Assembly (NCBI GenBank): GCA_945952105.1
Contig: CAMFGZ010000015.1
Coordinates: forward strand, 1-64,000
Direction: 5' to 3'
DNA from: an uncultured Rhodospirillaceae bacterium
GTDB lineage: Bacteria; Pseudomonadota; Alphaproteobacteria; Reyranellales; Reyranellaceae
DNA: 64,000 nucleotides
A program made the position numbers and the translations under genes. Below, piece by piece: positions 6,674 to 43,207 of the stretch. The notes under the pieces are model-generated. The model saw nothing but the letters and a program-made list of their open reading frames with translations, searched no databases and was not told where the DNA came from. Numbering within the stretch: position 1 is the stretch's first letter; the number at the start of each line of letters is the position of its first letter.

Positions 6674-7321
6674 TCAAAGCCCCAGCTTGCTCATGAAGGG
6701 CGGAAGGGTTCGTCCGATCGAGAGAAGATACCGGCCCATGGCGCCCGCCACCTGCTTCACAGCCGGCCGCGCGCTCATGCGGTCGCGCCAGTGGTGGAGG
6801 CGCGTCAGGTCGGTCGCGATCGGCGCGCCCATCCGTTCGCCGAAGAGCTGCGCCATGTAGAAAGCGATGTCGGCATAGCTGTAGGCACCGGCCAGCCACT
6901 CCTGTTCGCCGAGCGCGCGCTCCATCTCAGCATAGAAGCGCGCAGCGGCATCATGCGCTCCGGGCGCCTTTGGATCGCTCATCAGCCGAATGATTTGCGG
7001 AAAGTAGACTTCGTCGGATTTGTGCTCCAGCAGCCGCGCCCGGGCACGTGCGCGCGGTTCGGACGACCACAGCGCGGGGTTCCGCTTCAGCGATTCCAGA
7101 TACTCGAAGATCTGTGTCGAATCGAAGAGTTCGAGGTCGCCATCGATCAGCACGGGCACCTGGCGCTTGGGATTGATGCGCGCGACCTCCGGATGCTTCG
7201 GTTCGTAGAGCGTCTTCATCCCGAAAGGCACCATCTCGAGCTCGAAGGCGAATCCCTTCTCGCGGAGGGCGATCTCGGCCTTGGCGCCAAACATGCTGAG
7301 AGGACCGGAATAGAGCTTCAT
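6674..7321 (-). CDS. Glutathione S-transferase family protein
   Basis: The 215-residue product starts with a thioredoxin-like GST N-domain (MKLYSGPLSMFGAKAEIALREKG) and contains the cis-Pro motif RQVPVLIDGD followed by the glutathione-contact DSTQIFEYLE. The C-terminal helical domain occupies about residues 85-210. The role would be conjugation or reduction with glutathione in the cytosol. I chose the internal ATG because it begins the fold exactly; the open frame extends 28 codons further without any domain. It is upstream of, and nearly abuts, the small hydrolase gene, which may act on the same compound. Confidence 0.87.
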   Translation of the reverse strand: MKLYSGPLSMFGAKAEIALREKGFAFELEMVPFGMKTLYEPKHPEVARINPKRQVPVLIDGDLELFDSTQIFEYLESLKRNPALWSSEPRARARARLLEHKSDEVYFPQIIRLMSDPKAPGAHDAAARFYAEMERALGEQEWLAGAYSYADIAFYMAQLFGERMGAPIATDLTRLHHWRDRMSARPAVKQVAGAMGRYLLSIGRTLPPFMSKLGL

Positions 7322-7347
7322 GCCGGCCACCTTACGGGGTCGCCGTT

Positions 7348-8607
7348 CTACATCAACACGAACATGCCGACGGCAGCGGCTGCCATCACTGCAAGCGTCA
7401 ACCAACCCAGCACACGCTGCCAGGGAGCCGCCGTGAAGTCGCCCATGATCTCGCGGCGCGACGCGACGATCATCATCGCACCGATGATCGGCACCACGAT
7501 CACGCCGTTCAACACCGCACTCCAGATGAGGGCCTTGATCGGATCGATGGGCAGAAAGACGACGCCGAGGCCGGCGAGAATCGCCGCGGCAAGCGTGAGA
7601 TAGAAGGGCTTCGCTTCGCCGAATTCGTGCTCCAGGCCGACGTTCCAGCGCTGCACCTCGCCCAGCGCATAGGCGGCCGATCCGGCCAGCACCGGCACGG
7701 CGAGCAGGCCCGTGCCGATGATTCCCAGGCTGAACAGCAGGAAGGCCGCCTCCCCGGCGATCGGCTTAAGCGCCTCGGCGGCCTGCTGCGTGCTCTCGAT
7801 GTCGGTCTTGCCGTTGGCGTTGAGCGTCGCCGCGGTGGTCAGGATGATGAAGAACGCCACCAGGTTCGACATCGCCATGCCAATGCCGGTTTCCCAGCCG
7901 ATGCGCGTCAACTCGCCCGGCGCCTGAGCGGGATTTTCCTTGAGCGGTCCGGCTTCGTCGTCGCCCTCTTCCTCCTCGACTTCTTGCGAGCTCTGCCAGA
8001 AGAAGAGATACGGGCTGATCGTGGTGCCGAGCACAGCGACGACCAGCGTCAACGTCTCCTTATCGAAGGCGAACTTCGGCACCAGGGCACCAAGTCCGAC
8101 CGCCCGCCAATCGAGATGCGCGGTGAAGACCACGCCGACATAGGCGAAAAGGGAGAAGGTCAGGTATTTCAGGAAGCCGACATAGCGGCTGTAGGGGATG
8201 AACACGATCGCCAGGACGGAAGCGAGGGCGAACAGGAAGGTGAAGACCACCTGCCCCCAACCGACCAGCATGGCCAACGCCGCGCCCATCGCCGCAAGGT
8301 CGGCACCGATATTGATCGTGTTCGCGATGAACAGCAGCAGCACGGCACCCAAAACGACCGGACGCGGAAAACTCCGGCACATGTTGGCAGCCAGTCCCCT
8401 GCCCGTAACGCGGCCGATGCGGGCGCTGACCGACTGTACCGCCACCATCAACGGCCAGGTGAGGACCACTGTCCACAGAAGCCCGAAGCCAGCGTGGGCG
8501 CCCGCCTGGGAATAGGTCGCAATGCCGCTTGGATCGTCATCGGCCGCGCCGGTGATCACACCGGGACCGAGCCTCTTGATCAATCCTTGTGTATTGGTCG
8601 CCACCAT
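7348..8607 (-). CDS. Nramp-family divalent metal transporter with altered metal site
   Basis: A 419-residue membrane protein with about eleven hydrophobic segments and the Nramp fold signature near the N terminus (GPGVITGAADDDPSGIATYSQ is the family-like region). Classical Nramps bind Mn or Fe with DPGN in helix 1 and a Met-Pro-His in helix 6. Here helix 1 reads DPSG (25-28) and helix 6 reads GTTISPY (194-200), so both the Asn and the Met ligand are missing. An acidic loop (EVEEEEGDDE, 209-218) follows helix 6. The protein may carry another ion, for example Mg, as some Nramp-related proteins do. The ATG is supported by a GAGG site; it appears to be a single-gene unit. Confidence 0.85.
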   Translation of the reverse strand: MVATNTQGLIKRLGPGVITGAADDDPSGIATYSQAGAHAGFGLLWTVVLTWPLMVAVQSVSARIGRVTGRGLAANMCRSFPRPVVLGAVLLLFIANTINIGADLAAMGAALAMLVGWGQVVFTFLFALASVLAIVFIPYSRYVGFLKYLTFSLFAYVGVVFTAHLDWRAVGLGALVPKFAFDKETLTLVVAVLGTTISPYLFFWQSSQEVEEEEGDDEAGPLKENPAQAPGELTRIGWETGIGMAMSNLVAFFIILTTAATLNANGKTDIESTQQAAEALKPIAGEAAFLLFSLGIIGTGLLAVPVLAGSAAYALGEVQRWNVGLEHEFGEAKPFYLTLAAAILAGLGVVFLPIDPIKALIWSAVLNGVIVVPIIGAMMIVASRREIMGDFTAAPWQRVLGWLTLAVMAAAAVGMFVLM

Positions 8608-8724
8608 GGACCTCGCAAACGCCGGGTCTGCCCCGCAAGTTCCTGTCCCCTGCCGCAATGTTTGCGAAGGGACAAGAGGACCAAGTCGCTCTCAGTCGTA
8701 GTGAATTGGAGCAGCCGCCAAAGT

Positions 8725-8742
8725 CAGGTCGACTCGAACCTG
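8725..8742. repeat. Short inverted repeat upstream of the Nramp-type gene
   Basis: CAGGT (8725-8729) and ACCTG (8738-8742) form perfect 5-base arms around 8 bases, about 120 bases upstream of the transporter ATG within the 195-base gap 8608-8802. It could be a regulator site. I see no clear -35/-10 pair beside it and nothing else in the gap. Confidence 0.2.
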
Positions 8743-8802
8743 CGCCAACACCTGCAACTCGAGCCGCCTTTCTTCGAGGTCTCTGGCGAAACGAGCCGGG
8801 CC

Positions 8803-32759: not shown

Positions 32760-33827
32760 ATGAACAAATCGCCCACGACCAGGTCCCGGACCGCCGTCCT
32801 CAACCGCCGCACCATCCTCGCTGCCGCGGGCGCCGCCACGGCCGCCCTCGCCGCGCCGCGCATCCTGCACGCGCAGGGGAAGGAACTCGTGGTCGGCGGC
32901 GCCGCCAGCCACAAGGGCTTCGTCGAAACCATCATTGCCCCGGTCGTCGAGAAGAAGTTCTCCTGCAAGGTCGTGTTCGAGGGCTCCCGCTCGCTGGTCA
33001 ACCTCGAGAAGATGCAGAAGAACAAGGACAAGCAGTACCTGTCGGTCGTCATGATGGACGATCCGGTCATGATCCCGGCCGTCGCCGAGGGCCTGCTCGC
33101 CCCGCTGACCGCCGCCAAGGTACCGAACCTTGCTGCCCTGAAGCCGGGCACGATCCACATGGACGGCATGTGGTGCAACTACCTCCAGCCCTGGCTGGGT
33201 ATCGCCTACAATCCAAAGGCCATGAAGACGGCGCCGACCTCATGGGCCGATGTCTACGATCCCAAGTACAAGGGCCGGGTCATCCTGCCGTCGCTGCAGA
33301 ACACGGAAGGCCTCGCCAACCTGTTCATGGCGGCCTTCCTCGCCACCGGGAAGCCGATGGCCGAGGCGCAGAAGGACATCGACGCCGGCTTCAAGAAGCT
33401 GGTGACCATCAAGCCCAACCTGCTGACCGCCTACACGCAGATGCCGCAGGCCTACAACCTGCTGGAACAGGGCGAGGGATTCATGATCTCGAGCGCGATC
33501 TCGCAGGTCGCGCTCGAGCGCAAGGCCGCCGGCGCGCCGGTCGAGATCGCCGTCCCGAAGGAAGGTATCTTCGCCATGCCGTCGGGCGTCGCGCTGGTGA
33601 AGGGCGGACCGCAGCCCGAATTGGCCGCCGGCTACATCAACGAGATGATCGGGCCGGAGATCCAGGCCAAGCTCTCGGCGGCCACCTACTCGCTGCCGAC
33701 CAACAAGGACACACCCGTGCCGGCCGGCGCGCCGACCAACGCCACCATCTTCGGCATCGACTGGAAATTCGTCGCCGACAATCGCGCCGACTGGGTCAAG
33801 CGCTGGGACCGTGACATGGCGATGTAG
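32760..33827 (+). CDS. ABC transporter substrate-binding protein, PotD type, Tat-exported
   Basis: The 355-residue protein has a twin-arginine signal (NRRTIL, Arg16-Arg17) with a hydrophobic Ala-rich core and a cleavage site near ILHAQG. The mature part matches the iron/polyamine-type periplasmic binding proteins (group of PotD), with DVYDPKYKGRVILPSLQ and GIDWKFVADNRADWVKRWDR. It delivers ligand to the PotABC-like importer encoded directly after it. The racemase- and allantoinase-like genes at the end of the operon suggest a ureide or hydantoin ligand, though polyamines remain possible. Confidence 0.88.
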   Translation: MNKSPTTRSRTAVLNRRTILAAAGAATAALAAPRILHAQGKELVVGGAASHKGFVETIIAPVVEKKFSCKVVFEGSRSLVNLEKMQKNKDKQYLSVVMMDDPVMIPAVAEGLLAPLTAAKVPNLAALKPGTIHMDGMWCNYLQPWLGIAYNPKAMKTAPTSWADVYDPKYKGRVILPSLQNTEGLANLFMAAFLATGKPMAEAQKDIDAGFKKLVTIKPNLLTAYTQMPQAYNLLEQGEGFMISSAISQVALERKAAGAPVEIAVPKEGIFAMPSGVALVKGGPQPELAAGYINEMIGPEIQAKLSAATYSLPTNKDTPVPAGAPTNATIFGIDWKFVADNRADWVKRWDRDMAM

Positions 33828-33842: not shown

Positions 33843-34907
33843 GTGACTTCCGACTCCTTTCTCGATGTCGCCGGGGCCGAAAAGTCCTTCGGCGGCGTGA
33901 CCGTGCTGGGCGGCGTCGACCTCGAGGTCGCCGCCGGCGAGTTCATCTCGCTGCTCGGCCCCTCGGGATGCGGCAAGACCACCTTGCTGCGCATCGTCGC
34001 CGGCCTTCTCGCAGCCGACCGCGGCACCATCCGGCTCGACGGCGAAGAGATCGGCGCCCGGCCGCCGCACCGGCGCGACGTGGGCGTCGTGTTCCAGAAC
34101 TATGCGCTCTTCCCGCACCTGACGGTCGCCGAGAACATCGCCTTCGGCCTCAAGGCGCGAAAGCACCCGGCTGGCGAGATCGGCCCGACGGTGCGTCGCT
34201 TCCTGTCACTGGTCCGTCTCACGGACTTCGCCGACCGCTCCGTGCGCGCTTTGTCGGGAGGCCAGCAGCAGCGCGTCGCGGTCGCGCGGGCGCTGGCGGT
34301 GAAGCCCAAGCTGCTGCTGCTCGACGAGCCCTTCTCCGCACTGGACCGCAAGCTGCGCGAGAACATGCAGATCGAGTTGCGCCGCCTGCTGCGCGAGCTC
34401 GGCATCACCGCCGTCTTCGTCACGCACGACCAGGACGAGGCGCTCACCATGTCGGACCGGATCGCGGTGATGAACAGGGGGGCGATCGAGCAGCTGGCGG
34501 AGCCGGCCACGATCTACCGCTCGCCCGCGACCGCCTTCGTGCTGGAATTCGTCGGCCTCTCCTCGCGCCTCAACGGCACGGTGGTGGGTCAGGACCATGA
34601 CCATGTGATCGTCGATACCGCCTTCGGACCCCTGCGCGCGGCAGGCAGCTTCGTGACCGGAGCGCCGGTCGTGCTGGCGGTGCGGCCCGAGCGCATCAAG
34701 GTGAACACCGGCGGCGACTACGCGCTGGTCGCCCGCCTGCGCGACGCCGTCTTCCAGGGATCCAAGGTCCAGCTTCATTTCGAGGCGAAGGACGGCGACC
34801 ACCTCATGGTCGAGACCGCCGATCTTTCCGACGGACTACCCCCGCCCGGCACGGAGATGCGTCTGAGTTGGGCCGTCGCCGACACGCTGATCTATCCGGC
34901 GTCATGA
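33843..34907 (+). CDS. ABC transporter ATP-binding protein, PotA type
   Basis: The 354-residue ATPase has Walker A GPSGCGKTT, the signature [15 protein letters not shown], Walker B LLLLDEPFSALD and the H-loop VTHDQDEA. A C-terminal TOBE-type regulatory domain (about 240-350) is present. Translation starts at GTG 15 bases after the binding-protein gene. The stop overlaps the next permease start by ATGA. It powers the importer encoded around it. Confidence 0.93.
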   Translation: MTSDSFLDVAGAEKSFGGVTVLGGVDLEVAAGEFISLLGPSGCGKTTLLRIVAGLLAADRGTIRLDGEEIGARPPHRRDVGVVFQNYALFPHLTVAENIAFGLKARKHPAGEIGPTVRRFLSLVRLTDFADRSVRALSGGQQQRVAVARALAVKPKLLLLDEPFSALDRKLRENMQIELRRLLRELGITAVFVTHDQDEALTMSDRIAVMNRGAIEQLAEPATIYRSPATAFVLEFVGLSSRLNGTVVGQDHDHVIVDTAFGPLRAAGSFVTGAPVVLAVRPERIKVNTGGDYALVARLRDAVFQGSKVQLHFEAKDGDHLMVETADLSDGLPPPGTEMRLSWAVADTLIYPAS

Positions 34908-35755
34908 CGACGAAAGGCGCTGCCTCGCCCTGGCGGGATCCCGTGGCACTCCTCGCCGTGCCCGCCGTCCTCTATCTGTTGGTCGTCTACGCTTTCCCGC
35001 TGCTCTGGCTCTTCATGAAGAGCCTGACCGGCCCCACCGGGCTCACGGTCCAGCCCTACGTTTCCTTCCTGAGCGACCCCTTCAACTGGCGCATCGTCGG
35101 CAACACGCTGCGCGTCGCTGGCTGGGTCACTCTCGTCTGCTTCCTGATCGGCTATCCCGCCGCGTTCGCGCTCGCGCGTGCCGGTGCCTTACTCCAGATC
35201 GTGATGCTGGTGTCGATCATCCTGCCGCTCTCGATCGGCGCGGTGGTCAAGGCCTTCGCCTGGCAGATCGTCCTGCGTCGCGATGGTGTCGTCGCGCAGC
35301 TGCTCGTTGGCGTCGGCATCTGGGACGAGCCGCAGCGGCTCTTGTTCACCGAGACCGGGCTAGTGCTGGGCGCGGCCAACATCTTCCTGCCCTTCATGAT
35401 CCTGCCGATCTATTCCGTGGTGAAGCTGATCAATCCGCGCCTCAGCGAGGCCGGCGCGACCCTGGGCGCCACGCCTCTCTATCGCTTCACCCACGTCACC
35501 CTGCCCCTCACCCTGCCGGGCGTCGTGTCAGGCGTCGCTTTCGTCTTCTCGATGAGCGTCTCGATGTTCGTCATTCCCTCGCTGCTGATCGGCGACCGGT
35601 TCCAGACTCTCTCGACCCTGATGGGCCGCTCCTTCCTGCTGATGCGCAACGAGCAGCTCGGCTCGACCACGGCGGTCATCCTGCTGGTGCTGGCCGTCTC
35701 AATCGTCGTCGGATCGACGTGGCTCGCCCGTCGACTCGGAGGCAGCGCCACATGA
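34904..35755 (+). CDS. ABC transporter permease, PotB type
   Basis: The 283-residue protein has six hydrophobic segments and the permease EAA loop EAGATLGATPLYRFTHVTLP that docks on the ATPase. ATG overlaps the ATPase stop (ATGA). It forms the channel with the second permease. Its N terminus is a short cytoplasmic tail before the first helix (about 20-42). Confidence 0.92.
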   Translation: MTTKGAASPWRDPVALLAVPAVLYLLVVYAFPLLWLFMKSLTGPTGLTVQPYVSFLSDPFNWRIVGNTLRVAGWVTLVCFLIGYPAAFALARAGALLQIVMLVSIILPLSIGAVVKAFAWQIVLRRDGVVAQLLVGVGIWDEPQRLLFTETGLVLGAANIFLPFMILPIYSVVKLINPRLSEAGATLGATPLYRFTHVTLPLTLPGVVSGVAFVFSMSVSMFVIPSLLIGDRFQTLSTLMGRSFLLMRNEQLGSTTAVILLVLAVSIVVGSTWLARRLGGSAT

Positions 35756-36552
35756 CCGTCCTCGAACGCCTCTCGCAGTATGTCGTCTGGGCAATCGCGG
35801 GTTTCACCGTCGTCTTCCTGATGACGCCGCTGATTGTCACCGTGGCGGTGTCGTTCGGCTCCTCGACCGTCTTCACCCTGCCGCCGCCGGACTGGTCACT
35901 GCGCTGGTATGAGCGCCTGGCCAACATGCGCGGCCTGTTGCCCGCGCTCGTCGTCTCGCTGCAGATCGCCGCCGTCTCGACGGCCATCGCCATGGTGCTC
36001 GGCACCCTGTGCGCCATCGCCCTCGTGCGCGGCCGCTTCCCGGGGCGCGAGACGATCTCGACCTTCCTCGTCTCGCCGCTGATGCTGCCGGGCCTGGTCA
36101 TTGGCATCGCGATGCTGCAGGGCTTCAAGGCGATGGGCCTGCGCGACGTCTATGGCAGCCTGCTGGTCGCACACGTCGTCATCACCCTGCCCTATGTCGT
36201 GCGCACCGTCGTCGGCGCGCTGTCGCTGTTCGACTTCTCGCTGATCGATGCCGCACGGACCCTGGGCTGCTCCTATCCGGCGGCGCTGACGCGCGTGCTG
36301 GTGCCGGCGCTGGCGCCGGCGTTCCTCACCTCGGGCATGTTCGCGTTCCTCGCCTCGATGGACAATTACCCGATCTCGATCTTCTTCACCGACGCCTGGA
36401 CCAAGACTCTGCCGATCCAGATGCTGCAATATGTCGAGGAGCGGCCCGATCCGACCATCGCCGCCATCTCGGCTTGCCTCGTCCTCCTGGCGATCGTGGC
36501 CCTGGTGATCGGCGACCGACTCGTGGGCTTGCGCAAGCTCGCCGACTTCTAA
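35752..36552 (+). CDS. ABC transporter permease, PotC type
   Basis: The 266-residue protein has six membrane segments and the EAA loop DAARTLGCSYPAALTRVLVP. It overlaps the previous permease by ATGA, so the pair is translated in step. The racemase-like gene follows after 10 bases. With the binding protein and ATPase it makes a complete importer. Confidence 0.92.
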   Translation: MTVLERLSQYVVWAIAGFTVVFLMTPLIVTVAVSFGSSTVFTLPPPDWSLRWYERLANMRGLLPALVVSLQIAAVSTAIAMVLGTLCAIALVRGRFPGRETISTFLVSPLMLPGLVIGIAMLQGFKAMGLRDVYGSLLVAHVVITLPYVVRTVVGALSLFDFSLIDAARTLGCSYPAALTRVLVPALAPAFLTSGMFAFLASMDNYPISIFFTDAWTKTLPIQMLQYVEERPDPTIAAISACLVLLAIVALVIGDRLVGLRKLADF

Positions 36553-36562
36553 GAATGGCCTC

Positions 36563-37312
36563 ATGAAAATTCTCGTCGCGAATCCCAACACGTCCACGGG
36601 CGTGACCGACCGCCTGGTCGCGGCCGGCAAGCTGGTCGCCAGCGCCGGCACCGAACTTCAGCCGATGACCGCGCCGCGCGGCGTGCCCTATATCGCCACG
36701 CGCGCCGAAGCCGCGATCGGCAGCGCCATGATGCTGGAGATGCTGGCCGAGCGGCGCGGCACCTTCGATGCCGCCATCGTCGCGGCCTTCGGCGATCCCG
36801 GCCTCGGCGGTGCGCGCGAGCTTTTCGACTTCCCTGTCGTCGGCATGGCCGAGGCGGCGATGCTGGTGGCCTGCACGCTCGGGCGGAAGTTCGCGATCGT
36901 GAGCTTCGCCAAGGCACTCGAACCGTGGTTCGCGGAAATCGTCGACTGGCACGGAATGTCCGGCCGCTGCGCCTCCATCCGCACGCCCGACGAGGGCTTC
37001 CGCTCGATTGACGACGTTCAGCACGAGAAGGAACAGGTGCTGATCGATCTCGCGCTGGGCACGGTGAAGAACGACGGCGCCGACGTCGTCATCCTCGCCG
37101 GCGCCCCGCTCGCGGGTCTCGCCAACACCATCCGCGATCGCGTGCCGGTGCCGCTGGTCGACGGCATCCAGGCCGCGGTGACGATGGCCGAGGGGTTGGT
37201 GCGCCTCAATCCGCGCAAGGCGACCTTGGGAACATACCGCCGTCCCGCCGCCAAGGACTCCAAGGGCCTCGCCGGTCCGCTGGCCGATGTGATCGGCCAC
37301 AAGGAGTCGTGA
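36563..37312 (+). CDS. Asp/Glu/hydantoin racemase-family protein lacking the catalytic cysteines
   Basis: The 249-residue protein has the racemase fold: VANPNTSTGVTDRL, AAFGDPGLGGARELFDFPVVG and later DVVILAGAPLAGLA. Hydantoin and allantoin racemases use two cysteines, in ACFxDPG and LGCAGM. Here these places are Ala and Gly/Ala, and the only two cysteines of the protein lie elsewhere (in LVACTLG and SGRCASI). It sits between the importer and an allantoinase-like gene, whose GTG start overlaps its stop. It may use another mechanism or have lost racemisation. Confidence 0.82.
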   Translation: MKILVANPNTSTGVTDRLVAAGKLVASAGTELQPMTAPRGVPYIATRAEAAIGSAMMLEMLAERRGTFDAAIVAAFGDPGLGGARELFDFPVVGMAEAAMLVACTLGRKFAIVSFAKALEPWFAEIVDWHGMSGRCASIRTPDEGFRSIDDVQHEKEQVLIDLALGTVKNDGADVVILAGAPLAGLANTIRDRVPVPLVDGIQAAVTMAEGLVRLNPRKATLGTYRRPAAKDSKGLAGPLADVIGHKES

Positions 37313-38208
37313 GCACGATGCGCGACCTCAAGGGCTACGGCCGCACGCCGCCCGACCCGAAGTGGCCGACCAACGCGCGCGTGGCCGTCTCCTTCGTGAT
37401 CAACTTCGAGGAAGGCGCGGAGATGTCGTTGTCGGCGGGCGACGCCCACAACGAGAAGGTCTACGAAGTCACCGACGAGGTCGTGGGCGTGCCCGACCGA
37501 TGCATGGAATCGCATTTCGAGTACGGCACCAAGGCCGCTTGGTGGCGGATTGCCGATTCGCTTGAGCGACTCGGTGTGCCGGCGACCGTCAGCACCTGCG
37601 GCCTCGCCGCCGAACTCTCGCCCTGGCTGATCCAGGATGCCGTGGCACGCGGTCACGAGATCTCCTGCCATGGCTGGCGCTGGGAAAAGCATGCCCATAT
37701 GGAAGAGGCGCAGGAACGCGAGATCATTGCCCGCACCGTCAAGGCGCTGACCGAGATCGCCGGCACACGCCCGGTCGGCTGGCACACGCGGTCCACGCCC
37801 TCGCCCAACACGCGCCGCCTGCTCGTCGAGGAAGGCGGCTTCCTCTACGACAGCGACGATTACTCGGACGACCTGCCTTTCCACGTCGAGGTCGAGGGAA
37901 AGCGGCACCTGGTGCTGCCCTACAGTTTCGACACCAACGACATGCACTATCACCAGGGCTTTCACCGCTTCGTGTCAGCGCGCGATTTCGCCGACTACAC
38001 GAACGACGCCTTCGACACGCTGTGGACCGAGGGCGAGCGGTCTCCGAAGATGATGTCGATCGGCCTCCACCTGCGCATGATCGGCCGCCCCGGCCGCATC
38101 GCTGCCCTCGACCGCATCGTGTCGCACATGAAGCAGAAGGGCGGCGCCTGGTTCGCGACGCGCCGGCAGATCGCCGAGCACTGGATCGCGCGTTTCAAGG
38201 ACTCATAG
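37309..38208 (+). CDS. Allantoinase-like polysaccharide-deacetylase-family protein (PuuE type)
   Basis: The 299-residue protein is close to metal-independent allantoinase (PuuE): KGYGRTPPDPKWPTNARVAVSFVINFEEG, then STCGLAAELSPWLIQDAVARGHEISCHGWRWEKH and WHTRSTPSPNTRRLLVEEGGFLYDSDDYSDDLP. PuuE opens the ring of allantoin to allantoate. GTG overlaps the racemase stop; an ATG at 37318 is a possible alternative. It is last in the six-gene importer operon, which fits uptake and ring opening of a ureide. Confidence 0.88.
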   Translation: MSTMRDLKGYGRTPPDPKWPTNARVAVSFVINFEEGAEMSLSAGDAHNEKVYEVTDEVVGVPDRCMESHFEYGTKAAWWRIADSLERLGVPATVSTCGLAAELSPWLIQDAVARGHEISCHGWRWEKHAHMEEAQEREIIARTVKALTEIAGTRPVGWHTRSTPSPNTRRLLVEEGGFLYDSDDYSDDLPFHVEVEGKRHLVLPYSFDTNDMHYHQGFHRFVSARDFADYTNDAFDTLWTEGERSPKMMSIGLHLRMIGRPGRIAALDRIVSHMKQKGGAWFATRRQIAEHWIARFKDS

Positions 38209-38783: not shown

Positions 38784-38960
38784 TGCGGCCGGACTATACC
38801 GGAGGGGCAGCCGGCTGCACCCTCCGCAGCGGGTCGACGAGGTTCACGTTTCGGCGGTCGAAAGGTCGGCATAGACCGCACCGCCGGGAAACCGGCGACG
38901 ACCGCGGCGCGCATGCGCTACAACACCTGCCCCGGGGATCATACGATTTCACCGCAAGAG

Positions 38961-39998
38961 ATGAGCTTCAAGGTCCACATCGCCTCCGCCGGCCGCACGA
39001 TCGACGTGCCACCCGGCGCCACCATCCTGGAGGCCGCGCTCGATGCCGGCATCTCCTTTCCGTTCGGCTGCCAGTCCGGCAACTGCGGCGCCTGCAAGTC
39101 GCGCCTCGTGAAGGGCGAGGTGACGATGGGCGGCTATTCCGAGTTCGCGCTTTCCGACGACGAAAAGGCGCAAGGCCTGATCCTTGCTTGCCGTGCCGTC
39201 CCGGCCGGTGAGAGCGAAGTCGCCTGGATGGAGGAAGACGACCTGATCGTCCATCCGCGCCGCCTCCTCGCCTGCAAGGTCGTCTCCCTCGACGATGCCA
39301 CGCACGACGTCAAGCGTATCCGGCTCGAGATCGTCTCGGGCGGTCCGTTCGATTTCTCGGCCGGACAGTTCGCGTCCGTCACCTTCGAGGGCTGCCCGCC
39401 GCGCGACTATTCGATGGCGAACGTCCCGGGCGATCCGATCCTCGAATTCCATGTCCGCCGCACCGCGGGCGGCGCCACCAGCGCGCATGTCTCGGAAAGG
39501 CTGAAGGTCGGCGATGCCGTTCATGTCGAAGGACCGTTCGGCGCTTCCTATCTGCGCGAGGCCCATCGCGGCCCGATCATCGCCGTCGCGGGAGGGTCTG
39601 GCATGGCGCCGATCAAATCGGTGGTCGAGCGCGCGCTGCAGAAGGCGCTGCCGCAGCACATCTATTTCTATTTCGGCGTCCGCGGCGAACGCGATCTCTA
39701 CTTGCACGACCACTTCGCGACCCTCGCCGGGAAGCACAGGAACCTGCATTTCGTACCCGTGCTGAGCGAAGGCGGCGCTTCCAGCCTGCGGCAAGGCCTG
39801 GTCCACGAAGCCGTCGCTCAGGACTTCGATGAGGTCGATGGCTGCAAGGCCTACATCGCCGGTCCGCCGGTCATGGTCGAGGCCGCGACCCGGTTGCTGG
39901 AACAGCGGGGCATGCGGCGTCTCGATATCCACGCCGACGCCTTCTACACGGCGGCGGAGATGGCGAACGCGGGCAAGAAGACAGGCGCGGACCAATGA
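38961..39998 (+). CDS. 2Fe-2S ferredoxin/FAD/NAD oxygenase reductase component
   Basis: The 345-residue protein has an N-terminal plant-type ferredoxin domain with Cys37, Cys42, Cys45 and Cys77 (CX4CX2C plus distal Cys), then an FAD domain with RDYSMAN and an NAD domain with AVAGGSGMAPIKS. It matches reductases of ring-hydroxylating or methane-type oxygenases and CDP-glucoseen reductase. No oxygenase component lies in this window, so its electron acceptor is unknown. Start was placed where the ferredoxin fold begins; it overlaps the next gene by ATGA. Confidence 0.92.
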   Translation: MSFKVHIASAGRTIDVPPGATILEAALDAGISFPFGCQSGNCGACKSRLVKGEVTMGGYSEFALSDDEKAQGLILACRAVPAGESEVAWMEEDDLIVHPRRLLACKVVSLDDATHDVKRIRLEIVSGGPFDFSAGQFASVTFEGCPPRDYSMANVPGDPILEFHVRRTAGGATSAHVSERLKVGDAVHVEGPFGASYLREAHRGPIIAVAGGSGMAPIKSVVERALQKALPQHIYFYFGVRGERDLYLHDHFATLAGKHRNLHFVPVLSEGGASSLRQGLVHEAVAQDFDEVDGCKAYIAGPPVMVEAATRLLEQRGMRRLDIHADAFYTAAEMANAGKKTGADQ

Positions 39999-41671: not shown

Positions 41672-43207
41672 GTGTCCCAGGACAATCCGCGCATCGCCGT
41701 TCTCGGCTTCGCCATCGAGTGCAACCGGTTCTCGCCGGTGACGACGGCGGAGGATTTCGAACACGACGTCGACATCCGCGGCAACCGGATCGTGAGCGAG
41801 GCGCGCTCGGGCAAGTCGATCACCATGCCCGACCTGCCAGGTTTCTTCGACGAAATGGATCGCACCGGCGCCTGGACACCCGTGCCGCTGCGCGTGTCGC
41901 TGGCACAGCCCGGAGGCCCCGTCGAGGAGCAGTTCTTCAAGGCCTATCTGGCCGAGATCGAGGCCGGCCTGAAGTCGGTCCTGCCGGTCGACGCGATCTT
42001 CGTCTCTTGCCATGGCGCGGCACTGGCCGAGGGAACCGACGATCCCGACGGCGACCTGTTCGAGATCCTGCGCCGCGTTGCGGGACCCGACGTGCCCATC
42101 GTCTCGGTATTCGACCTGCACGCCAATGTCTCGCGCCGGATGACCGACAATCTCAGCGTCTTCGTCGGCTATCTCGAGAACCCGCACGTCGACATCTACG
42201 AGCGCGGCGTCGAGGCGGCGAAGCACATGCGCGAGTTGCTGGCCGGCACGCGCACGGCCATCGAGATGGTGAAGATCCCGCTGGTGCCCCCGCAGATCGC
42301 GCTGCTGACCGCGAAGGGCCCCTATGCCGACCTGATCAAGTACGGTCAGACGAAGGTCGGCGGCGACATCCTGAACGTCTCCGTCATGGCAGGGTTCGCC
42401 TACAGCGACAGTCCCAAGAACGGCCTCACCGCGGTCGTTACCGCGCGCAACGGCAACCGCAGGGCGGCGGCCGACCTGGCGCTCGACATCGCCCAGCGCG
42501 CCTGGGGCATGAGGGAACGCTTCAAGCGCGAGGCAACGACCCTGGCCGACGCGGTCCAGCTCGCCGTCTCGGTCGGGCGCGACCGTCGCCGCAAGCCGAT
42601 CATCCTGGCCGACGTCGCCGACAATCCCGGTGGCGGCGGGCGCGGCAACACCACCTATCTTCTGCGCGCGCTGAAGGGCGCGCGGGCGCAGGGCGTGTAT
42701 TTCGGCGTTTTCAACGATGCGGCGCTCGCCGCCAGGGCGCACGAACTGGGCGAAGGCGCGATCTTCAACGCCTCGTTCAACACGCAGGAGCACCAGGAAT
42801 TCTCCCTGCCCTTCGACTGCGAGGCCAAGGTCGTGAAGCTGTCCGACGGCCAGTATGTCGGGCGGCGCGGCGTGCTCAGGAACGTCTCGGCCGACATGGG
42901 CCCGTCGGCGCTTCTCGATCTCGGCGGCATTCTCATCGTGGTCATCAGCATTCGCTGCCAGTGCATGGATCCGCGCCAGTTCGAGATGTTTGGTCTGGAC
43001 ATTGCTCAGGCCCGAACGGTCGTCGTGAAGAGCCGCGGCCACTTCCGCGGCGGCTTCGACGAGTTCTTCAAGCCGGAACAGATCTACGAAGTCGATTGCC
43101 CGGGCCTGACTTCGCCGGTGCTGGCGAATTTCACCTGGACCAAGCTGCCGAGGCCCGTCTACCCGCTCGACGAAGAGACGAGCTGGACTCCTCCGGCATC
43201 CACTTGA
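41672..43207 (+). CDS. M81-family metallopeptidase (MlrC type)
   Basis: The 511-residue protein matches the MlrC family, whose founding member cleaves linear microcystin peptides. Metal residues lie in the stretches SCHGAALAEGTDDPDGDL and FDLHANVSRRM, with a C-terminal domain marked by DVADNPGGGGRGNTTYLLRAL. It starts at GTG with AGGAGG. Many bacteria carry this family without microcystin; the substrate may be another amide or hydantoin-related compound. The next gene, an oligopeptide-type binding protein, fits that idea. Confidence 0.88.
   Translation: MSQDNPRIAVLGFAIECNRFSPVTTAEDFEHDVDIRGNRIVSEARSGKSITMPDLPGFFDEMDRTGAWTPVPLRVSLAQPGGPVEEQFFKAYLAEIEAGLKSVLPVDAIFVSCHGAALAEGTDDPDGDLFEILRRVAGPDVPIVSVFDLHANVSRRMTDNLSVFVGYLENPHVDIYERGVEAAKHMRELLAGTRTAIEMVKIPLVPPQIALLTAKGPYADLIKYGQTKVGGDILNVSVMAGFAYSDSPKNGLTAVVTARNGNRRAAADLALDIAQRAWGMRERFKREATTLADAVQLAVSVGRDRRRKPIILADVADNPGGGGRGNTTYLLRALKGARAQGVYFGVFNDAALAARAHELGEGAIFNASFNTQEHQEFSLPFDCEAKVVKLSDGQYVGRRGVLRNVSADMGPSALLDLGGILIVVISIRCQCMDPRQFEMFGLDIAQARTVVVKSRGHFRGGFDEFFKPEQIYEVDCPGLTSPVLANFTWTKLPRPVYPLDEETSWTPPAST

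Follow-up and report, generated by a model that had tools for sequence, protein, structure and literature searches.

The known chemistry of the allantoin/hydantoin racemase group centres on a pair of opposed thiols. The allantoin racemase of Pseudomonas is active with one of the two cysteines, and a glutamate of this enzyme, three residues after site 1, is reported by Cendron et al. (2016) to take over from the missing one. In the allantoin racemase of Klebsiella the substrate is contacted by Asn12, Thr118 and Thr119, and the two threonines hold the ureido tail of allantoin (PMC12661438). Removal of both cysteines has been reported for two further enzymes: isomerisation by NozR C75A/C179A was undetectable in cells (PMC10156859), and OpaE C90S/C199S retained at most 0.3% activity, compared with 4.8% for C90S alone (PMC12661438). 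The C75A/C179A mutant of NozR resembles the natural state of the protein described here, which has Ala and Gly at the two sites. We refer to this protein as RacA. It is encoded in a 64,000-nucleotide stretch of contig CAMFGZ010000015.1 (the window) from an uncultured Rhodospirillaceae bacterium, whose genome is a 5.46-Mb assembly. A search of the open-access literature returned no description of a cysteine-less group of this kind.

RacA lies between an importer and a PuuE-like gene

RacA matches PF01177 with 139.4 bits against a cut-off of 31 in a profile search. This is its sole Pfam family at 0.001, PF17645 not being matched, and no model matched in an NCBIfam search at E 0.001. A complete ABC importer of the polyamine/aminoethylphosphonate type is located upstream of RacA, and a PuuE-like gene follows it (Table 1). 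The earlier note on this DNA had described an intact operon with GTGA coupling to the downstream gene, and the arrangement is as it said: the stop of the last permease gene, at 36552, is 10 bases ahead of the RacA ATG, all components of the importer are present, and the GTGA is found at 37309-37312. The same note called the downstream gene allantoinase-like. The protein is PuuE-like, with 297.8 bits against the PuuE structure 3cl6, but its score of 330.8 bits against TIGR03212 (allantoinase PuuE) is under the NCBI cut-off of 424.6. Therefore, allantoin need not be the substrate of RacA. The solved relatives of the binding protein include polyamine, aminoethylphosphonate and iron types and indicate no single ligand.

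Elsewhere in the window, positions 38913-39998 encode a benzoate-dioxygenase-reductase-like protein with ferredoxin, FAD and NAD domains according to profile matches, beside which are ORFs judged by eye to be short-chain dehydrogenase-like and alpha/beta hydrolase-like. Positions 41672-43207 encode a microcystinase-C-like (MlrC) protein that scores 157 bits against an NCBI exception-model cut-off of 999.

Table 1. Positions in the window of RacA, its catalytic-site codons and the surrounding operon genes.
Feature	Positions	Strand	Remarks	Basis
RacA, Cys-less allantoin/hydantoin-racemase-fold protein	36563..37312	+	ATG start, 249 aa	ORF list, PF01177, alignment, structure model
Ala75 codon	36785..36787	+	First catalytic Cys site (AAFGDPG)	Sequence, alignment
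Asp78 codon	36794..36796	+	Site 1 +3 residues; column of the Glu of P. fluorescens allantoin racemase	Sequence, alignment
Gly180 codon	37100..37102	+	Second catalytic Cys site (LAGAPLAG)	Sequence, alignment
ABC solute-binding protein	32760..33827	+	2-aminoethylphosphonate/spermidine type	ORF, profiles, solved relatives
ABC ATPase	33843..34907	+	PotA-like	ORF, profile matches
ABC permease	34901..35755	+	PotB-like; start uncertain, longest ORF from 34868	ORF, profiles
ABC permease	35719..36552	+	PotC-like; alternative ATG at 35752 would give ATGA overlap with the preceding stop	
PuuE-like protein	37309..38208	+	Polysaccharide-deacetylase family, probable cyclic amide hydrolase	GTGA overlap with RacA

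Both catalytic sites have lost their cysteine

The gene first drew attention because both expected catalytic cysteines seemed to be missing, with AAFGDPG and LAGAPLAG at the two motifs and no other cysteine well placed. Each of these readings is correct. Alignment to the solved allantoin racemases 3qvj and 5lfd places Ala75 at site 1, in the column of Cys79 of the Klebsiella enzyme, and Gly180 at site 2, in that of Cys184. The columns of both motifs align with the two-cysteine enzymes without gaps. RacA has two cysteines in all, Cys104 and Cys136, neither at a shifted position. Among the best 80 of at least 579 relatives, Cys104 is present in 72 and replaced by Ala, Leu or Ser in eight, and Cys136 is present in 60 and missing in 20, so neither is invariant. 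An extra cysteine at position 73, two residues before site 1, is seen in four of 29 same-genus orthologs (L036, L037, L038 and L040) and in one of those best 80 relatives. Misalignment or a shifted cysteine is ruled out by the motif alignments and by the sequences of the same-genus orthologs.

The fold is retained and the pocket is remodelled

The structure model of RacA, predicted from an alignment of which 61 of 81 rows were used, has a pLDDT of 94.9. It superposes on allantoin racemases with Z of 32.8-33.4 and rmsd of 1.7-1.9, and the two-domain pseudosymmetric fold is present. The P. fluorescens allantoin racemase (5lfd, 5lg5) is tied as the closest structure, with Z 33.4 and rmsd 1.7 over 234 residues for 5lg5_F. 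It is also the nearest precedent for RacA, which it resembles in having no cysteine at site 1, where it has Gly, and in carrying an acid three residues further on (Glu, compared with Asp in RacA); unlike RacA, it keeps the site-2 cysteine and a Ser-x-Glu motif, and it falls outside the group with Gly at site 2 described below. The Klebsiella pneumoniae enzyme HpxA/KpAllR (3qvj, 3qvk) superposes along almost its full length (Z 33.3-33.4, rmsd 1.9, 32% identity), and RacA retains its Asn12, its FGDPG loop and the AEA glutamate, but the Klebsiella enzyme differs at Cys79 (Ala in RacA), Cys184 (Gly), Thr119 (Phe) and Ser-Ile-Glu (Tyr-Ile-Ala). The branch of arylmalonate decarboxylase (AMDase), maleate isomerase and EutA also includes members with one cysteine missing. 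AMDase, however, uses the site-2 cysteine, where RacA has Gly180, and its structure 3dg9 is far more distant (Z 17.9, 14% identity). Together with the failure to match PF17645, this rules out placement of RacA in the AMDase branch.

Several pocket positions have changed along with the cysteines. Position 43 is Ser in 35 of 37 two-cysteine rows of the alignment, whereas it is Tyr in 51 of the 53 rows with the Ala/Gly pair. In the same 53 rows Glu45 is lost in 47, and Arg47 is found in 49, Phe115 (in place of Thr) in 45, Trp122 in 50 and Pro182 in 51. Asn7-Pro8-Asn9, Tyr43, Asp78 and Glu97 are each present in every one of the best 80 of at least 579 relatives. Asp78 is also present in 37 of 37 two-cysteine rows; its conservation is therefore not specific to the cysteine-less group, and it is a weak marker of membership. 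No acid or base stands in place of the site-2 cysteine in the alignment. As for the residues that contact allantoin in Klebsiella, in the best 80 of at least 579 relatives the Asn is retained throughout, the Thr118 column is Thr or Ser in 74, and the Thr119 column is Phe or Ile in all 80. Given that Thr119 corresponds to Phe115 in RacA, allantoin is an unlikely substrate. Taken at the level of sequence, the alignment shows a pocket that appears to have been rebuilt rather than abandoned.

A conserved cysteine-less subfamily under purifying selection

Relatives of RacA were collected by scanning one genome per species across 84,980 species, which gave at least 593 stretches and at least 579 relatives; the 80 with the highest scores were retained. 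The scan pattern permitted A or C at site 1, and choosing the best 80 favours RacA's own group, so that the sample represents the core of that group by construction. Within it, at 44-97% identity to RacA, site 1 is Ala and site 2 is Gly in 80 of 80 (best 80 of at least 579). Ala181, Pro182, Leu183 and Gly185 are likewise present in all 80, making the GAPLxG loop invariant. According to the record titles, these best 80 of at least 579 belong to the Alpha-, Beta- and Gammaproteobacteria, with a few metagenome-assembled genomes (MAGs) labelled otherwise. Closer to the window, AAFGDPG and LAGAPLAG are kept in all 29 same-genus orthologs examined, and dN/dS of these orthologs against the window gene ranges from 0.04 to 0.30, with a median of 0.10. 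The Ala/Gly pair in all of the best 80 of at least 579 relatives and the dN/dS values rule out decay of a pseudogene. RacA is thus a member of a conserved cysteine-less subfamily of the racemase fold that is under strong selection. The wider group contains two further cysteine-less types, in which site 1 is occupied by Val or Met: L165 (GVSYDTG, SGAAMAG) and L158 (AMSMDSG, VGAVMAG).

Within the order, a copy of at least 60% identity is present in 50 of 76 genomes, 48 of which are among the 65 same-genus genomes. The same number of same-genus genomes (48 of 65, with one copy partial) have a copy of at least 80% identity, ruling out a trait of one genome; 17 of 65, including some incomplete assemblies, are without a copy at that identity. 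Across the class the distribution is patchy, with a match at 1e-50 in just 10 of 385 genomes. Plasmids also carry relatives: 22 records match at 1e-30, and of 11 examined, nine encode the Ala/Gly pair, including those of Klebsiella oxytoca (41%) and Arthrobacter (43%). In the two most distant of the 11, from Agrobacterium and the archaeon Halomarina (32-33%), both cysteines are present.

A quick tree was built from 87 of 109 rows with the motif columns removed and was rooted on two-cysteine rows; some of its forks are open. In this tree all rows whose site 2 is Gly, 62 in number, fall into a single group (SH-aLRT 99), outside of which are 24 two-cysteine rows and the Pseudomonas enzyme. The group comprises a main cysteine-less group of 43 rows (support 89), 15 one-cysteine rows that retain the first cysteine, including a paralog from the genome of the window, and two rows in which Val or Met replaces that cysteine; two long-branched Ala/Gly rows fall outside the main cysteine-less group. 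A single origin of the Ala/Gly state is not rejected (p-AU 0.764), and the tree constrained to it had the higher likelihood. The branching is consistent with an order in which the second cysteine would have been lost first and the first cysteine later. The one-cysteine sister group resembles RacA in Gly at site 2 (16 of 16 rows), Tyr43 (14) and Arg47 (16), but keeps the site-1 cysteine (ACFGDPG or close), has Gly or Ala rather than Pro at position 182, and has fewer ring-hydrolase neighbours, as judged from 10 loci. The paralog (G000:C27:34684-35427; L196:7685-8428) has ACFGDPG and GGAGLAG and is located beside genes judged by eye to be FAH-family-like and MFS-like.

Cyclic-amide hydrolases recur beside the relatives

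Neighbouring genes were counted by tblastn at 1e-10 with at least half of the query matched, in flanks of up to 8 kb; for 16 of the 80 the locus spans less than 16 kb. Around the best 80 of at least 579 relatives, a dihydropyrimidinase is near 42 loci, while 20 loci have a PuuE-like gene and 18 a Trz/Atz-type amidohydrolase nearby. At least one of these cyclic-amide hydrolases is near 61, and no ring hydrolase was found within those flanks in the remaining 19. An AMDase/maleate-isomerase-like superfamily member is also near 42 of these 80 loci (best 80 of at least 579), and in 39 of them a hydrolase or AMDase-like gene lies no more than 200 bases away on the same strand. In 10 of the 80 (best 80 of at least 579) the flanks showed no partner of any of the four types, but at least one of these ten, L066, ends inside a PuuE-like gene. 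In the nine AMDase-like partners that were aligned, site 1 is Gly and site 2 is the Cys of CTN. Examples are L217:2665-3390, L218:10248-11006 and L219:11245-12003, which are candidates for decarboxylases or isomerases. The RacA gene of a Methylobacterium plasmid is directly overlapped by another gene of the racemase family.

An importer together with a PuuE-like gene stands beside RacA in other orders as well, in Roseomonas (L071), Pinisolibacter (L107) and Beijerinckiaceae (L109, L112). In Bosea (L103, L114) both the importer and the PuuE-like gene are on the opposite strand, as is the PuuE-like gene of a Hyphomicrobiales MAG (L081), where a binding protein was not found. A Salipiger plasmid carries importer, deacetylase-family gene, amidase and RacA consecutively. 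In three Reyranella-type loci (L058, L063 and L064) a Trz/Atz-type amidohydrolase gene lies between importer and RacA, and this gene is absent from the window. The 11 Reyranella-type loci (L056-L066) showed no AMDase-like partner near RacA, and a search of the window's genome with the Pfam family of the partner gave a single weak partial match of 35.7 bits, located on another contig, so RacA can probably do without the partner in this genome.

For comparison we used a small set of 20 loci, 10 with one cysteine, five with two and five divergent cysteine-less ones. Near the 15 cysteine-containing loci a dihydropyrimidinase was found once, an AMDase-like gene once, a PuuE-like gene three times and a Trz/Atz-type gene once; ring hydrolases are therefore not exclusive to cysteine-less members. 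Near the five divergent cysteine-less loci, dihydropyrimidinase was found once, PuuE-like genes twice and Trz/Atz once. At L210, a two-cysteine racemase gene (ACFDDTG, LGCAGM) overlaps a divergent cysteine-less gene (VAAFMDPG, FGGAVFAG) in tandem, which suggests that cysteine-less and two-cysteine members have different jobs. The two genes are at 7295-8023 and 7989-8762, with a PuuE-like gene about 5 kb upstream.

What RacA may do

The earlier note supposed that RacA is probably functional in another way than the two-cysteine racemases, and this is well supported by the strong purifying selection, by the same replacements at both sites in relatives from Alpha-, Beta- and Gammaproteobacteria and one Arthrobacter plasmid, and by the recurrent cyclic-amide hydrolase neighbours. 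That RacA should be an ordinary allantoin or hydantoin racemase, its cysteine misaligned or supplied from elsewhere in the chain, is extremely improbable: the PF01177 match, the PuuE-like neighbour and the retention of Cys104 in 72 of the best 80 of at least 579 relatives would fit, but the motif columns align to the two-cysteine enzymes without gaps, and among the same relatives Cys104 is missing in eight and Cys136 in 20. Since loss of both cysteines leaves NozR without detectable activity and OpaE with no more than 0.3%, two-thiol racemisation by RacA is very unlikely. The same mutants (PMC10156859, PMC12661438) weigh against the proposal that RacA racemises or epimerises a cyclic ureide by other means, with Asp78 as the base of one face and, opposite it, water or a Tyr, Arg or Glu of the 40-50 loop. 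Such an enzyme could exploit a hydantoin C5-H that is sufficiently acidic, its modelled fold is that of allantoin racemases, neighbours such as the dihydropyrimidinase near 42 loci (best 80 of at least 579) can need a stereoisomerase, and the Pseudomonas allantoin racemase, with Gly at site 1, works with one of the two cysteines. In RacA, however, both cysteine sites are empty and not one, the ureido-tail contact Thr119 has given way to Phe or Ile in every one of the best 80 of at least 579 relatives, and a divergent cysteine-less member stands in tandem with a two-cysteine racemase at L210. We regard racemisation of this kind as unlikely.

Alternatively, RacA could be a dead binding or regulatory pseudoenzyme that senses or delivers the ligand of the operon, or supports an AMDase-like partner. 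The absence of an acid-base side chain from both cysteine sites is what such a protein might show, and a superfamily partner, with the site-2 cysteine in the nine aligned, lies near 42 loci (best 80 of at least 579). Nevertheless, the active-site loop columns hold many residues invariant in 80 of 80 (best 80 of at least 579), and the partner is not obligatory, given that none was found near RacA in L056-L066 and that the match in the window's genome is weak; we consider this role unlikely as well. We lean towards RacA being an active thiol-free enzyme of cyclic ureide or imide catabolism, not a two-thiol racemase, with Asp78 as candidate base, and it probably performs a different chemical step from the racemases of its fold. 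In such an enzyme, Asp78 would work on one face only, taking or giving a proton adjacent to a carbonyl group, in a ring or in a ring-opened ureide, and the loop 180-185 and Arg47 would hold the negative charge. The outcome would be isomerisation, elimination or decarboxylation; racemisation of an acidic C-H by a single base would be slow at best. From the genes that surround RacA, we infer a pathway of import and hydrolysis for cyclic ureides or imides.

Implications for the racemase fold

The absence of the cysteines is wider than first noted and extends to a whole subfamily. We put forward tentatively that this is a thiol-free family of the racemase fold, found in Proteobacteria and at least one Arthrobacter, on chromosomes and plasmids, which may catalyse a new one-face reaction (isomerisation, elimination or decarboxylation) in an undescribed ureide or imide pathway, often with a dihydropyrimidinase and a partner that has the site-2 cysteine only. 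The label "Asp/Glu/hydantoin racemase", carried by one such protein on an Arthrobacter plasmid, implies an activity which proteins of this subfamily probably lack. The recurrent neighbours of RacA name the partners needed to find its use. In a group whose known chemistry relies on paired thiols, a widespread and selected branch with none suggests that the fold has been reused.
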